Origin: Victivallis lenta
GTDB lineage: Bacteria; Verrucomicrobiota; Lentisphaeria; Victivallales; Victivallaceae
Reading direction: 5' to 3'
DNA length: 64,000 nucleotides
Assembly (NCBI RefSeq): GCF_009695545.1
Contig: NZ_VUNS01000008.1
Span: forward strand, 1-64,000
Each line of letters opens with the position of its first letter. The first letter of the stretch is position 1. The notes beneath the pieces are model-generated. The model did not search any database, was not told the DNA's origin, and worked only from the letters and a program-made list of their open reading frames with translations. This document shows positions 58,302 through 64,000 of this stretch, piece by piece. The translations under genes were made by a program, and so were the position numbers.

Positions 58302-58643
58302 TCAAAGGATGATGCGCACAATGCAGAGGAAAAAGACAAACAAGGCGGCAGCTTCCGCCGACACTGCCGCTGCCAGCAGAATCCGGCAGGCCGAAACGCT
58401 GCCGCGCCGGTCGAGAATCAGCCAGGCGGCCACCCAGGCCACCGTGAAAAAAATCATGATCCCGGAATAGCCGCCGTTAACCGCCAGACGGGTCAGAAGC
58501 GGCAGCAGACGGAACATGTCACCCCATCCTCGCCGGAGGAACGCCTCTCCGAGACTGCCGAACAGGAAGGCGACGAACCAGGCGGTCAGAAAAAAGACCG
58601 CGACCTTTGCAATGCCGGTGTTGCCGTCTTCCGCCATGATCAC
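58302..58643 (-). CDS. Small inner-membrane protein coupled to the PL8 lyase
   Basis: About 113 residues with three hydrophobic segments: VAVFFLTAWFVAFLFGSLG, SGIMIFFTVAWVAAWLIL and LLAAAVSAEAAALFVFFLC. No family recognised. A GTG at 58643 overlaps the lyase stop (GTGA), while an ATG at 58637 is also possible, so the two genes are translationally coupled. That coupling suggests a role in lyase export or in handling its products, or simply a hitch-hiking membrane gene. It ends 260 bp before the LacI start. Confidence 0.6.
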   Translation of the reverse strand: MIMAEDGNTGIAKVAVFFLTAWFVAFLFGSLGEAFLRRGWGDMFRLLPLLTRLAVNGGYSGIMIFFTVAWVAAWLILDRRGSVSACRILLAAAVSAEAAALFVFFLCIVRIIL

Positions 58644-60610
58644 CGCTCGGCCGGAACGGATACCGTACGGCCGGCCTCCGCTCCCTGCGGAAACGGAAGC
58701 CGGTACTTCCGGCCGGCCAGCACGACGTCGAGAATCTTCCGCTTCCGGCCGGGATCGGCGGCATAAATCCGGCCGTTCCGCAGCATCACGAGGGCAGGCT
58801 GCTTCGCCTCAAGCACCGTACCGTCCGGCAGAGTGACCGTTCCCGCTTCATGGAAGGCGGCCATGACCGCGTCTTTTCCGGCGACGGCATGAATCGACTC
58901 CGAACCGGTTTCCAGCAGCTTCGCGGAACACTCCGCCGCCTGCGGCAGATAGACGACCTGATAGGCGTAGAATGCGTTCTCCGGCTTCCGGCCGTGATTG
59001 ATGGCGCACGTAAAAATCCGTCCCCTGACCGGGGCATCCGACAGCGCTTCCGTGACCCGTTTCCAGTTGCCGGTCCGCTCCTCGCTCCCGGCGCTCAGCT
59101 TGCCGTCGGTTTTCAGAATCCGGTAGAGAAAGGCCCCGTTGGCGACCTCGGTCCCCTCCAAGTCGCCGAACCGGTGAACGGCCACCTCCTCATCGGTGCG
59201 CATCTGCGCAATCGTCGTGACAACCGGAGCATCGACGCCGCTCCGGATATCGCTGCCGACCGCGATCATCCCGGGCCCGAAGAAGAAGAAACTCTTCTTC
59301 GCCGCGACCTCCCCGTTATCGAAATCCATCGCGCAGAAGCCGATTTCATCGTCGGAGAGGCCGCCGACCCAGCCGCACTTGTTCCGGAGTCCCGGATTTT
59401 TGCAGACAAGCGGAGAATCGTCCTGCACGGAGGTGACGCCCGGAATCTGCCGCCACTCCCAGAGGGCGCCGATATCGACCAGCTCGCCGCGGCCGCTCAT
59501 AAACATGGTCGCGCCATGCCCGGCCAGGCGGCCGAGCAGATTCTCGGAATTGACCGTTTCACTCGGAACCGTGCGGCTTGAACTCATTTTGACCGACCAG
59601 TAACAATCGCCGCCGTTGCGCTGTACATAGAAGTCGCTGTCCGGAAAATACCGGCTGCCGGAGAATCGGAAATCATTCTCCGTCACCCGATGCCGGACGC
59701 CGAGCACCCGGTTCAGCCGGGCCGCCGTTCCGGTCACCGAACGGTACTTGGCCCGCACCTGTCCGCCGTTGATCTGCCGCCCGCAGGCGCTGAAATCCAT
59801 CTGCCGGTCGAACAGGACCCAGCGCAGACCATGATGATAGTACGAAGTCAGGATCTCTGCCTTCTCCTCCGGCAGCGCAAACCGGGTTCCGTGCAGAATA
59901 GCGAGCCATTTCGTCATCTCGCTGAAATAGGCGAGCCCGTAATTGCCGAACTGAAGCTGCGGACCGTGCTGGTGAAAGCTCCAGTCCGGCTGGATGCCCT
60001 CCATGCCCGGCGCGGCGACGTGAAGCTCTGCGGAAACGGCATCCGCCCCCTCCCGGACCCATTCCGGCTGTTCAAAAATCGCCCCTTTCAGAAGCTGGAT
60101 GCCGGCCAGCCAGACCCGGTTCTGCGCCGTCATGCCGGGTTCGGAACGGTCGAGAATCGGTCTCAGCTCCGCAAGCACCTCCGAAGGAAGCCCGTCCCCC
60201 AGCAGCAGAATCGCGGAACAGAGCTCCATCGGAGTTCCGATGCTCTGATGCCACCAGTTCGGACTCGTGCAATCCCGGGCCGCCCAGAAGCCGAGGGCTT
60301 TCACCGCCGCGTCGCGCAGTTTTGCGTCGGCGGCGCCTTTCTCCCTGCCGCGCCGGTACTCCGCGGCAAGCACGACCGCACGGCTCAGGTGACGGCGCGG
60401 CGCCCAGTGGCCGCGGTTCCGGTCGGCGTAATTCACATCCCGCCAGGAACCGTCCGGCTGCTGCGTTTCCAGCGCCCGCCGCGCTTCCGACGCAGTGCCG
60501 CTGCCGGAAAACCAGGCGGCGGCCTGTTCGCGTATTTTTCGTAAATCGGCATCGGCGGCAAAGAGATTCGTCAGAAGAACCATGATCAGCATCACTCCGA
60601 ATAATCGCAT
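58640..60610 (-). CDS. Secreted polysaccharide lyase family 8-like enzyme
   Basis: A 656-residue protein with signal peptide MRLFGVMLIMVLLTNLFAADAD. It has an N-terminal (alpha/alpha) toroid: SRAVVLAAEYRRG near residue 80, NWWHQSIGTPMEL near residue 125 with the catalytic Asn, QPDWSFHQHGPQLQFGNYG near residue 207 with catalytic His and Tyr positions. Then comes an antiparallel beta domain (DFYVQRNGGDCYWSVKMSSSR, FFFFGPGMIAVGSDI). The pattern is that of PL8 lyases acting on hyaluronan, chondroitin or xanthan by beta-elimination, a mode typical for uronic-acid polymers such as host glycosaminoglycans. It is somewhat shorter than most members. It is followed by a coupled membrane protein. Confidence 0.85.
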   Translation of the reverse strand: MRLFGVMLIMVLLTNLFAADADLRKIREQAAAWFSGSGTASEARRALETQQPDGSWRDVNYADRNRGHWAPRRHLSRAVVLAAEYRRGREKGAADAKLRDAAVKALGFWAARDCTSPNWWHQSIGTPMELCSAILLLGDGLPSEVLAELRPILDRSEPGMTAQNRVWLAGIQLLKGAIFEQPEWVREGADAVSAELHVAAPGMEGIQPDWSFHQHGPQLQFGNYGLAYFSEMTKWLAILHGTRFALPEEKAEILTSYYHHGLRWVLFDRQMDFSACGRQINGGQVRAKYRSVTGTAARLNRVLGVRHRVTENDFRFSGSRYFPDSDFYVQRNGGDCYWSVKMSSSRTVPSETVNSENLLGRLAGHGATMFMSGRGELVDIGALWEWRQIPGVTSVQDDSPLVCKNPGLRNKCGWVGGLSDDEIGFCAMDFDNGEVAAKKSFFFFGPGMIAVGSDIRSGVDAPVVTTIAQMRTDEEVAVHRFGDLEGTEVANGAFLYRILKTDGKLSAGSEERTGNWKRVTEALSDAPVRGRIFTCAINHGRKPENAFYAYQVVYLPQAAECSAKLLETGSESIHAVAGKDAVMAAFHEAGTVTLPDGTVLEAKQPALVMLRNGRIYAADPGRKRKILDVVLAGRKYRLPFPQGAEAGRTVSVPAER

Positions 60611-60804: not shown

Positions 60805-61107
60805 ATGAACAAGAGCTTGAAAGTCATGCTGCTGGCGGGAGTGCTTGCCGCCGGGGCGTTCGGGGCCGAAGCACGGGACCGGGGACCGGGCGACGGCGTA
60901 CAGATCACCCGGGCCATCGTCGGCGGAATCGTGCAGGTGTTGAGCCCGCGCCCATGCCGGCCGATGCCGCCGCCTCCGCCTCCGAACTGGTGCCCTCCAC
61001 CGCCGCCGCGCCATCATTGCCGCCGGCCGCGGTTCGACCGCCCGCCGCGACCGGCCGTCATTGAGCGGACGGTCATCATCGAACGGCCGCACGGCGGTCG
61101 CCGCTGA
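60805..61107 (+). CDS. Proline-rich exported protein
   Basis: A 100-residue protein with signal peptide MNKSLKVMLLAGVLAAGAFGAEA, then a short GDGVQITRAIVGGIVQVLSP segment and a low-complexity tail of six or more prolines, two Cys-Pro motifs, and a basic VIERTVIIERPHGGRR end. It is preceded by AGGAG at 60794. I do not recognise a family; periplasmic or envelope location is likely. It converges on the nitroreductase fusion gene across a hairpin at 61123. Confidence 0.6.
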   Translation: MNKSLKVMLLAGVLAAGAFGAEARDRGPGDGVQITRAIVGGIVQVLSPRPCRPMPPPPPPNWCPPPPPRHHCRRPRFDRPPRPAVIERTVIIERPHGGRR

Positions 61108-61122
61108 GGGCGCAAGCCGATC

Positions 61123-61152
61123 GGGATGCGGAAGATACGTCTTCCGCATCCC
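61123..61152. terminator. Perfect hairpin between convergent genes
   Basis: 13-bp stem GGGATGCGGAAGA / TCTTCCGCATCCC with a TACG tetraloop, placed between the proline-rich gene (stop 61107) and the minus-strand fusion gene (stop 61153). No T-run, but it is likely to act in both directions. Confidence 0.7.
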
Positions 61153-61809
61153 TCACTTCACCGGATACGGCAGGCCCCACTGCTGCAGGAAAATCCGTTC
61201 CGGCCTGTATTTGTCCTTCGGCTTCTCCACGCCGGTCGGCCGGCCGACCGAAACGATGCTGAACGGGATGATATCGTCCGGCAAACCGAGTACCGAAGCG
61301 ACTCCGGCGGAACGCTCCCTGTACGGAAAAACACCGAGCCAGACCGCGCCGAGGCCGGTTCCTTCGGCCGCCAGCAGAATGTTTTCGGTCGCAGCCGAGC
61401 AATCCTGCACCCACATTTCACGCGCCTCGCCGGTGCGGAACTGCGACGAAACACCGCAGACCACAACCGCGCCGGGCGCACTCTTCAGCATCTTCCCGTA
61501 CGGCATGACCTCAGCCAGCGCATCGAGCTTCGCCCGGTCGGTCACGATGATGAACGCCCACGGCTGTGCATTCGCTCCGGTCGGCGCCGCAAATCCGGCG
61601 CGGACGAGCGTTTCGAGCTCCGGCAGCGTCACCGGCTCCTTCGTGTATGCACGGACGCTTTTGCGGGAGTGGATGACCTCCAGCACATCCGGCCGCCGTT
61701 CCGGTTCCACGGGAGTGCCGCCGCCGGAAGCCGCCGCCCCTCCGGGACGGATCAATGCCAGCGCCAGCAGCAACAGCAGCGCCAGAATCACAACTCGTTC
61801 GAAATTCAT
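61153..61809 (-). other. Possible separate translation of the nitroreductase domain from an internal start
   Basis: Within the fusion gene an in-frame ATG at 61809 is preceded by GGAGGT at ideal spacing and begins a 218-residue product with its own hydrophobic N-terminal helix. This could produce a free nitroreductase as well as the fusion, or show that two genes lost the stop codon between them. Confidence 0.55.
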
Positions 61810-62892
61810 TTTGGTACCTCCATCCAACGGTTTGGGTTTCAAATCTGTGCGGCAGAAAAAATCGAGCAGCGCGCCGCAGGAGCAGAACCAGCGGCACCAG
61901 AGCCGCGGCCGAAAAAGGGAGAGCGCGACCAGCAGGAACGCCGAAAGAATCATCCACCACGACGCACCGGGCGCGAACGCCGGAAACGGCTCATAGGGCA
62001 GAAACGGGATACCGCAGACCAACGCAAGAACAGTCGCTCCGAGCACAATCCGGCGCAGGCGGGAACCGAACCGGAACGACCCCGGCCGCTGCGGCACACC
62101 GACGGCACGACCGAGCTTCGCGGTCAGTTCCTGCGCACAGCCGAACGGACAGACGCCGGAACAGTAAAAATTTTTCCCGCGCGCCAGCGCCAGCAGAATC
62201 ACCGCCGAAAACAGCAGCAGCGGAACCGAAAGGGTCCAATGCGGCGAGCTCCGGACCCACCCCGCAACCTGGGCCAGCGACAGCCCGCCATGCGCCAGGA
62301 AACCGAGCAGAAACAGATTGGCCGTCAGCTGAATCTGCCGGTAACGGCCGCGCAGCGGCCGGAAAAACCAGTAAAGATTGCCGAGCAGCAGCAGAATCAC
62401 CGCCGCATCGGTCCGGTTCCAGCGAATGGAAGGACGAACCGGCGGCGGCAGGGCGGCAGCTTCGGCCAGCCGCTCCCGGATCGTCTCCTGTGCGGCGCGC
62501 GACGAAAAGGTTGCGCCGGTCACGACATCGATCGGCAGCGCCGCCGCTTCGGCGGGGGTCAGATTCCGGTATCGGTCAAATACGCCGGAGGCGAGGACCT
62601 GCCGCCAGTATTCCGGGTCCTCCGCATTCGGGGGGAACTCGATCCGGTCGATTTTTCCGGACGCGGAGTCGAGAACGATCCGGGCCGGCACCGGGCCGCC
62701 GAAACCGGCGATCCGGTCATACTTCGGGCTCGTCGACAAAATATTCGGGGAAGTCTCCGGCGCCGGTGCGGCAATTTCCGCATTGCGCAAGTTTCGAGCA
62801 TACCAGAAAACGGCCAGCACCAATACGGCGAAAACCAAATTTCCGCAACGCCTTCCCGGCGGCGACAGCAATATGGATCGGATCTTCTTCAA
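61153..62892 (-). CDS. FMN-binding / 4Fe-4S membrane / nitroreductase fusion protein
   Basis: A 579-residue predicted fusion from a TTG at 62892, chosen because GGGAGGAG lies a few bases before it; earlier starts overlap the neighbour's terminator. Residues 20-40 are a membrane helix; residues 55-135 an FMN-binding RnfG/NosR-like domain with VVTGATFSS near 124-131. Residues 165-345 have several membrane helices plus two cysteine clusters of NapH/NosR type, CSGVCPFGC (244-252) and CRWFCSCGALLDFFC (333-347), for iron-sulfur centres. From residue 362 (MNFERVVILALLLLLALAL, a membrane or signal helix) a nitroreductase domain follows with IHSRKSVRAYTKEPVTLPELE and PTGANAQPWAFIIVTD. Electron transfer across the membrane to a flavin reductase is implied. 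An internal ribosome binding site suggests a second product. Confidence 0.8.
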   Translation of the reverse strand: MKKIRSILLSPPGRRCGNLVFAVLVLAVFWYARNLRNAEIAAPAPETSPNILSTSPKYDRIAGFGGPVPARIVLDSASGKIDRIEFPPNAEDPEYWRQVLASGVFDRYRNLTPAEAAALPIDVVTGATFSSRAAQETIRERLAEAAALPPPVRPSIRWNRTDAAVILLLLGNLYWFFRPLRGRYRQIQLTANLFLLGFLAHGGLSLAQVAGWVRSSPHWTLSVPLLLFSAVILLALARGKNFYCSGVCPFGCAQELTAKLGRAVGVPQRPGSFRFGSRLRRIVLGATVLALVCGIPFLPYEPFPAFAPGASWWMILSAFLLVALSLFRPRLWCRWFCSCGALLDFFCRTDLKPKPLDGGTKMNFERVVILALLLLLALALIRPGGAAASGGGTPVEPERRPDVLEVIHSRKSVRAYTKEPVTLPELETLVRAGFAAPTGANAQPWAFIIVTDRAKLDALAEVMPYGKMLKSAPGAVVVCGVSSQFRTGEAREMWVQDCSAATENILLAAEGTGLGAVWLGVFPYRERSAGVASVLGLPDDIIPFSIVSVGRPTGVEKPKDKYRPERIFLQQWGLPYPVK

Positions 62893-62976
62893 CCTCACTC
62901 CTCCCGGATATAACCTACCCGCCCCATCGTATTTTTCAACTCCGTCATCCGCTTTTCCGCGGAATTTTCCGGGCAT

Positions 62977-63028: not shown

Positions 63029-64000
63029 TTACGCGAGCTTCGAGATCGCCAGGTCGTAGCCGGTCCAATGCTTTTTCTCGTTTGCGATTTCAACCGAAAC
63101 CGCATACTTCGTATTGGCTTCCAGAATGTCGACCGAGGTCAAGGCGTCGTCCAGCTTGATCTTCTTGCCGGTGGCCATGTCGTACAGGTTGATCTTCACA
63201 TCCTTACCGAACCGCAGGTCCTTGTTGTAGTAATTCAGATCGAGATCGACCTTCGAGGCCGAGTCAAGCTCAAATGCGAAGAAGTCCTTCGCATCGCCGT
63301 AGCCGACCCACTCGTTCGACAGCGCCGCCGTGCCGGTGGCGGAGTCGAAGTTGACGGTCCGCGCCGCAGCAAGCTCGTTGTTGCCGGTATCGCCCTTCGG
63401 GAAATACTCATTGACCGCAACACTGATGGAGTAGTCGCTGTTCTGCTTGCCCTTGCCCTTGTCGCCGGACTCCACGACCAGATAGGTCTGCCCGGTCAGC
63501 AGCTCCTTGTCGAAGAACAGCATATCCGATCCCTTGACGCTCCAGGTCTTGATCTTCTTCTGATTCGCATCATAGAGACTGACCTTGAGTTTTTTGTCCG
63601 GATCGACGCCGTTGATCGAGATCGAGAAGCTGCCCGGACCGGTCGCCATGAGCTTGTAGTAGTCATAGCCGTCCTGATAGCCGACCCAGCCCGAAATACT
63701 CGTATTGACCGTGGTGGAGAGTTTGATCTCCTCCGCCTCGGCAAAGCTGTTGTTCGCCACGGTCTCGGTCGGGAAGTACTTGTCGTTGATCGTGATATCG
63801 TAGTAGCTGTTCTGCTTGCCCTTGCCTTTGTCGCCGGACTCCACCGACAGGTACGCAGCGCCCGGAACCAGCAGCTTCTCAAACGCCGTCTTGTCGCTGG
63901 AGACCGTCACGCTCTTGAGCTTCTTGCCCTGCTCGTCGTAGAGCGTCACCTTCAGCTTGGCCGTGACATTGCTCAGCGTCACCGTCATCTCGCCGGGGCC
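63029..64000 (-). CDS. C-terminal part of a repeat surface protein (pre-peptidase C-terminal-like repeats), partial
   Basis: The gene runs off the right edge of the window; only the C-terminal 320 or so residues are present. They hold about two and a half repeats of roughly 120 residues with a shared block, SVESGDKGKGKQNSYYDITI then KYFPTETVANNSFAEAEEI, and VVESGDKGKGKQNSDYSISV then EYFPKGDTGNNELAAARTV. The blocks GYQDGYDYYKLMATGPGSFSISI and GYGDAKDFFAFELDSASKVDLDL resemble the bacterial pre-peptidase C-terminal beta-sandwich pattern (D-x-x-Y/F strand). The DNA repeats as well as the protein. Such proteins are typically large secreted or surface adhesins or proteases; what the missing N-terminus carries is unknown. 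Confidence 0.75.
   Translation of the reverse strand, partial: GPGEMTVTLSNVTAKLKVTLYDEQGKKLKSVTVSSDKTAFEKLLVPGAAYLSVESGDKGKGKQNSYYDITINDKYFPTETVANNSFAEAEEIKLSTTVNTSISGWVGYQDGYDYYKLMATGPGSFSISINGVDPDKKLKVSLYDANQKKIKTWSVKGSDMLFFDKELLTGQTYLVVESGDKGKGKQNSDYSISVAVNEYFPKGDTGNNELAAARTVNFDSATGTAALSNEWVGYGDAKDFFAFELDSASKVDLDLNYYNKDLRFGKDVKINLYDMATGKKIKLDDALTSVDILEANTKYAVSVEIANEKKHWTGYDLAISKLA

Follow-up and report, generated by a model that had tools for sequence, protein, structure and literature searches.

A fused FMN-binding, NapH-like, and nitroreductase frame in Victivallis lenta with a candidate internal start

A 64,000-nucleotide stretch of Victivallis lenta DNA (contig NZ_VUNS01000008.1, positions 1 to 64,000; hereafter the window) contains a frame in which an FMN-binding domain, NapH-like iron-sulfur motifs, and a nitroreductase (NTR) domain follow one another, with a candidate ribosome binding site inside. 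Does this frame encode one membrane reductase for electron transfer, or did two genes lose the stop codon between them while keeping dual translation? A preliminary description had raised both possibilities. Nitroreductases are usually regarded as NAD(P)H enzymes of the cytosol. Few partners of flavinylated NapH-like proteins are known, and an in-frame fusion would give direct evidence of which enzyme accepts the electrons.

The fused frame and its domains

The frame from 62892 to 61153 on the reverse strand was a single open frame of 579 residues with zero internal stops. All three domains of the preliminary description were recovered by Pfam over cut-off: FMN_bind at residues 63-140 (4e-7), Fer4_5 twice (7e-13), and Nitroreductase from residue 407 (1e-24). 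The coordinates of the features are collected in Table 1. Upstream of TTG 62892, the same frame stays open as far as ATG 63105; TTG 62892 is the likely start because of the GGAGG 7 nt upstream of it. A sequencing or assembly error at the junction was ruled out, because four distant genomes and two other Victivallis-family loci (L002 and L003) have the same open junction. The hairpin right after the stop is probably a terminator common to the fused gene and a convergent open reading frame (60805-61107, plus strand). The source genome is 5.5 Mb and congeneric with Victivallis vadensis. Neither the fused nor the two-gene loci had conserved neighbor genes. The window also encodes, on the minus strand, a polysaccharide lyase family 8 protein with three PL8 domains in Pfam (58640-60610) and a repetitive protein with several similar "GYxDxxDYYKL..." segments (63029-64000), which runs past the window edge and has no Pfam match in the 319 residues inside the window.

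Table 1. Positions of the fused gene, its domains, and its signals in the window
Feature	Position	Strand	Details
Shine-Dalgarno GGAGG for TTG	62900..62904	-	7 nt spacing; SD:anti-SD -10.3 kcal/mol
Fused gene	61153..62892	-	TTG 62892, 579 codons plus TGA 61155-61153; open frame, Pfam domains
Transmembrane helix 1, residues 17-35	62788..62844	-	Hydropathy, flanking charges; helix 11-40 in fold model
FMN_bind domain, residues 63-140	62473..62706	-	PF04205; motif D122-VVTGAT128
First Cys motif, C244xxxC248 (then P), NapH-like Fer4_5	62149..62163	-	PF12801; both Cys invariant
Second Cys motif, C333xxxC337, Fer4_5	61882..61896	-	PF12801, second stretch; both Cys invariant
Linker, 15 codons, basic	61810..61854	-	45 nt, equal length in two other Victivallis-family fusions
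Internal Shine-Dalgarno GGAGGT	61816..61821	-	SD:anti-SD -10.7 kcal/mol; same site in L002 and L003
Internal ATG, residue 362	61807..61809	-	GGAGG 7 nt ahead; hydrophobic helix follows
Transmembrane helix ahead of NTR, residues 364-381	61750..61803	-	Hydropathy 2.44, basic N-side flank; same in fold model
NTR domain, residues about 407-573	61174..61674	-	PF00881
Hairpin right after stop	61123..61152	-	Perfect 13 pairs, -25 kcal/mol, z -6.9; without T run

In the upstream half, D122, G126, A127, and T128 of the FMN_bind domain and all four motif cysteines (C244, C248, C333, and C337) were invariant among nine aligned relatives. The domain thus carries the D-x-x-x-G-A-T attachment motif, and, going by ApbE substrates, we take D122-VVTGAT128 to be the likely covalent FMN site. 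The genome has a single ApbE (7e-73), with an N-terminal membrane helix that would make it available on the extracytoplasmic side; its gene lies elsewhere in the genome, outside the neighborhood of the fused locus. The N-terminus ahead of the first helix is predicted to lie inside the cytoplasm. The NCBIfam models for NosR (NF046105), NapH (NF007013), and NapH/MauN (TIGR02163) scored 37, 18, and 26 bits against cut-offs of 1000, 234, and 213, and those for NfsA, BluB, and the C-terminal part of FbiB scored 56, 47, and 50 bits against curated cut-offs of 223, 150, and 250. Because all these matches were below cut-off, none of the names NosR, NapH, NfsA, FbiB, or BluB would apply to the fused protein. 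Two other arrangements of FMN_bind were seen. A frame elsewhere in the same genome (G000:C6:133013-133687; L043 and L044) has two tandem FMN_bind domains, like published multi-flavinylated proteins. Long frames of 1,280-1,650 codons, such as L151:519-5456 (G209), carry FMN_bind and Fer4_5 at their far end; their first ~1,200 residues have no Pfam match, and frames of this kind are spread over many families of the phylum.

In the downstream half, the closest solved chains by both sequence and fold were 3m5k, 3kwk, and 3e10. The NTR domain fold matches FMN-containing chains, and the flavin-site segments RKSVR, N-x-x-PW, and GLGAVW were invariant or nearly so among eight relatives. Helix 364-381 would cross from inside to outside, and it is followed by a Pro/Ala/Thr-rich spacer typical of exported proteins. 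The fold model of the whole fusion had a pLDDT of 77, indicating good local confidence, and a pTM of 0.48, at which domain placement is unreliable. Its best structural matches were soluble NTRs; no similar solved structure was found for the NapH-like half.

Fused and two-gene relatives

The same fusion was present in six genomes besides the window. An intact pair of the two parts was found in 12 Lentisphaeria genomes, as one frame in seven and as two adjacent genes in five, so that relatives with a stop codon between the domains exist alongside fused ones. The fused genomes span three families. Three are Victivallis-family genomes, namely the window and two of another genus (g7), G031 (L002, 586-codon frame) and G014 (L003, 580 codons), in which the frames are open through both parts with a stop only at the gene end. 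The other four (G119, G120, G123, and G124; loci L055, L058, L059, and L065) belong to two distant families and carry frames of 602-645 codons, and each one scanned against Pfam showed the same three domains. No ATG or Shine-Dalgarno sequence was found at the junction of these four distant fusions; therefore, a single protein must be the predicted product there.

The two-gene relatives differ in how the genes meet. In Victivallis vadensis DSM 14823 (G007, NZ_QEKH01000020.1), a TGA is followed 17 nt on by a new start. In G001, of the same genus as V. vadensis, the genes are joined by an ATGA overlap, and in three genomes of genus g16, they overlap in a different frame. One further genome (G012) has the upstream module without an NTR, and in another (G125), contig ends cut between the two parts. 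These counts come from a search of 78 genomes of the family, with the upstream FMN-NapH module in nine, and of 197 genomes of the class, with the module at E up to 1e-20 in 33. A scan of genome contigs with two peptide patterns gave 10 loci; the distant fusions were missed by these patterns. No fusion outside the class Lentisphaeria was found among the loci read from 387 genomes of the phylum.

The helix-bearing NTRs (n = 13) formed one clade (98/98), with the soluble stand-alone NTRs of the class outside it. Twelve of the 13 were fused to or directly beside an FMN-NapH module, and the 13th was severed by contig ends. We therefore read the NTR as an enzyme fed by the module. A single origin of the module-NTR pairing across the class is supported by the NTR tree (98/98) but weakly opposed by the upstream-module tree (AU P = 0.044).

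We also considered in which direction the gene structure has changed. That the three Victivallis-family fusions form one clade descended from a single ancestral fusion was rejected (AU P = 0.0197). On a tree of 12 rows, at least three changes between the fused and split states are required, and an ancestral fusion with three splits costs about as much as two ancestral genes with repeated fusion. The spacer from the [DE]FF motif to the ATG is 45 nt and in register in all three Victivallis-family fusions, versus 32, 38, and 40 nt, out of frame, across the three types of two-gene relatives. Because the two-gene spacers are shorter and out of frame, splitting by small deletions fits better than repeated loss of a stop. 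Taken alone, these five spacer lengths would favor an ancestral fusion with later splits. If true, the fused, nested, and split forms among close relatives provide a compact case of conversion between operon and fusion.

The candidate internal start site

At the junction, the codons read GAT GGA GGT ACC AAA ATG. The GGAGGT-ATG and hydrophobic helix that had been noticed ahead of the NTR domain were thus confirmed, and ATG 61809 aligns with the start codon of the separate NTR gene in all five two-gene relatives. As a background, 1,253 in-frame internal ATGs were collected from sampled stretches of the same genome totaling 464 kb. Only 1.0% reached the Shine-Dalgarno energy of the window site, and GGAGG at 4-10 nt occurred in 1.3%. 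The energies in the Victivallis-family fusions were -10.7 (window), -11.4 (G031), and -10.9 kcal/mol (G014), and those in the two-gene relatives, in which this start has to function, were -9.5 in V. vadensis and -4.9 kcal/mol in the others. No RNA structure occluding the internal start was found (z 0.78).

The two g7 fusions share 64% of their residues, and about half of the identical residues use the same codon. The longest identical DNA run between them over 1.7 kb is 20 nt (AAAGAACTTTCCAAAGGAGG) and ends on the internal GGAGG, with other identical runs reaching up to 17 nt. This run provides moderate evidence that the DNA at the internal start site is conserved. On balance, the internal start in the Victivallis-family fusions appears likely to be used, which would also give a free NTR.

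The main competing explanation is that the full-length fusion alone matters and that the GGAGG-ATG is a leftover of, or preadaptation to, the two-gene layout, or marks a pause ahead of the final helix. The four distant fusions suggest that a fused product may suffice, and a Gly-Gly pair in the linker can yield GGAGG by chance, as 13.6% of the Gly-Gly pairs sampled from the genome begin with the codon GGA. However, the three Victivallis-family fusions have stronger sites than every two-gene relative, the conservation between L002 and L003 is of DNA, beyond that of protein, and the internal Met lies exactly where two-gene relatives start their NTR. We regard a purely full-length product as unlikely, although it deserves more weight than the two explanations considered below.

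A more specific version of internal initiation can be put forward tentatively, with rather less confidence than the use of the start itself. The gene may be nested, coding for a relay plus extra anchored NTR from a selected internal start, with the split operons having arisen via out-of-frame linker deletions that would have depended on that start. The relay itself would be self-contained, running from quinol to nitroreductase at the outer face of the membrane.

A proposed membrane-fed nitroreductase and the systems it resembles

The reading that we favor, with moderate confidence, is a one-gene membrane reductase in which the module feeds an extracytoplasmic NTR, with the Victivallis-family form probably also making a free NTR. 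The NapH-like flavinylated module would draw electrons at the membrane side, probably from quinol or a cytosolic donor. The Fe-S core would relay these electrons to an FMN that ApbE has attached to Thr128 outside the cytoplasm, from which they would pass to the FMN of the NTR-type domain. An extra transmembrane helix would tether the NTR domain at the same outer face as the FMN domain, where, with no requirement for NAD(P)H, it may reduce some extracytoplasmic acceptor. Fused or split, the genes would be alternative packagings of a single system, and in the Victivallis-family fusions, the internal ATG may yield some separate membrane-anchored NTR. For this model, we infer the topology, the FMN attachment, the direction of electron flow, the substrate, and that the internal start is used. 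Judging from flanking charges, the FMN domain would be outside and the two Cys motifs and the linker inside; one more helix would then bring the NTR out to the side of the FMN domain. In the two-gene NTRs, the helix-flanking charges are ambiguous by themselves. If the model is true, gut bacteria with such a membrane-fed NTR could differ in how they reduce quinones or the nitro compounds of diet or drugs.

The opposite orientation was also weighed, in which a cytosolic NTR oxidizes NAD(P)H and sends electrons outward, via the Fe-S core, to the FMN outside, with the final acceptor elsewhere. NAD(P)H is the electron source for most characterized NTR-family enzymes, and the soluble stand-alone relatives of the class have no helix. 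Nevertheless, a cytosolic NTR requires an even number of crossings past the second Cys motif, where there is one strong helix with a basic inner flank; the spacer after this helix resembles those of exported proteins, and lone relatives carry an N-terminal export signal or anchor. We therefore consider this orientation improbable. Least probable of all is that a stop was recently lost between two genes whose free NTR and free FMN-NapH proteins are the working products, the fusion being a tolerated by-product: adjacent gene pairs in V. vadensis, G001, and g16 and the failure of the Victivallis-family fused rows to form a clade speak for it, but the 45-nt linker is in register in the window and g7 fusions as opposed to the shorter out-of-frame spacers, a free FMN-NapH protein is not expected once the stop is gone, and the g7 frame is still open across 36% amino-acid divergence.

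The favored membrane reductase extends a known architecture. FMN_bind and a NapH-like part occur within one protein in 1,926 gene clusters of a published survey (Meheust et al. 2021, PMC8238504), so the earlier view that the three parts are normally separate proteins does not hold. In that survey, flavinylated NapH-like proteins combine membrane Fe-S centers with an N-terminal extracytosolic FMN domain; electrons are proposed to leave a donor such as quinol and reach the outer side via the Fe-S core, and proteins of this type supply several extracytosolic oxidoreductases (PMC8238504). The fused protein resembles such systems (characterized kin PceC and NosR) in having an N-terminal FMN_bind domain, predicted to be extracytosolic, and a membrane Fer4_5 core in one protein, a putative extracytosolic oxidoreductase coded alongside, and ApbE in the genome. 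It differs in that the partner is an anchored nitroreductase-family flavoprotein, in frame in seven genomes, ApbE is non-adjacent, and a C-terminal ferredoxin domain is absent. Because FMN_bind and NapH-like parts are already commonly joined, what is new is confined to the nitroreductase as partner, the fact that it is fused, and the internal start that has been kept. Of the two possibilities raised at the outset, a new membrane reductase made as a genuine single protein is supported by the three-domain frame in seven genomes, four of them in distant families, with the reservation that two of its three parts were already commonly joined. Dual translation draws support from the five two-gene relatives and the strong internal Shine-Dalgarno sequence, but does not extend to the distant fusions, which have no internal start.

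The word nitroreductase is absent from PMC8238504. Literature searches found no periplasmic nitroreductase and no link of Victivallis with flavinylation, and flavinylation with nitroreductase retrieved reviews of ApbE only. The FMN-NapH-NTR fusion was not found in the searchable literature, the coverage of which is incomplete.

The downstream half shares its fold, FMN-site residues, and a C-terminal K..KY....W with the subgroup of 3m5k, 3kwk, and 3e10 (Parabacteroides, Bacteroides, and Clostridium), but these are soluble single domains in the structures, whereas the present NTR comes after an electron-transfer module and a membrane helix. In animals, iodotyrosine deiodinase is likewise an NTR-fold flavoprotein, with a weak sequence match (E about 5e-7 to 1e-6), and its N-terminal helix anchors the enzyme in the membrane. 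Nested genes with in-frame internal starts also have a strong Shine-Dalgarno sequence and ATG inside a longer frame with a whole domain downstream. Such nested genes yield a short product besides the full-length one; the present unit, by contrast, is carried as two genes by close relatives, and its two products are predicted.

Two nitroreductases that stand alone, L141:1568-2275 (G446) and L144:1343-2110 (G165), carry an export signal or membrane anchor at the N-terminus, which suggests that exported members may be more general in this NTR group. Another Lentisphaeria frame, L143:1011-2051 (G132), joins a cytidylyltransferase-like domain (PF01467) to a following nitroreductase in one frame of 347 codons. 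Many genomes of family f21 have NTR frames of ~340-380 codons, and the PF01467-nitroreductase fusion may be common in that family.
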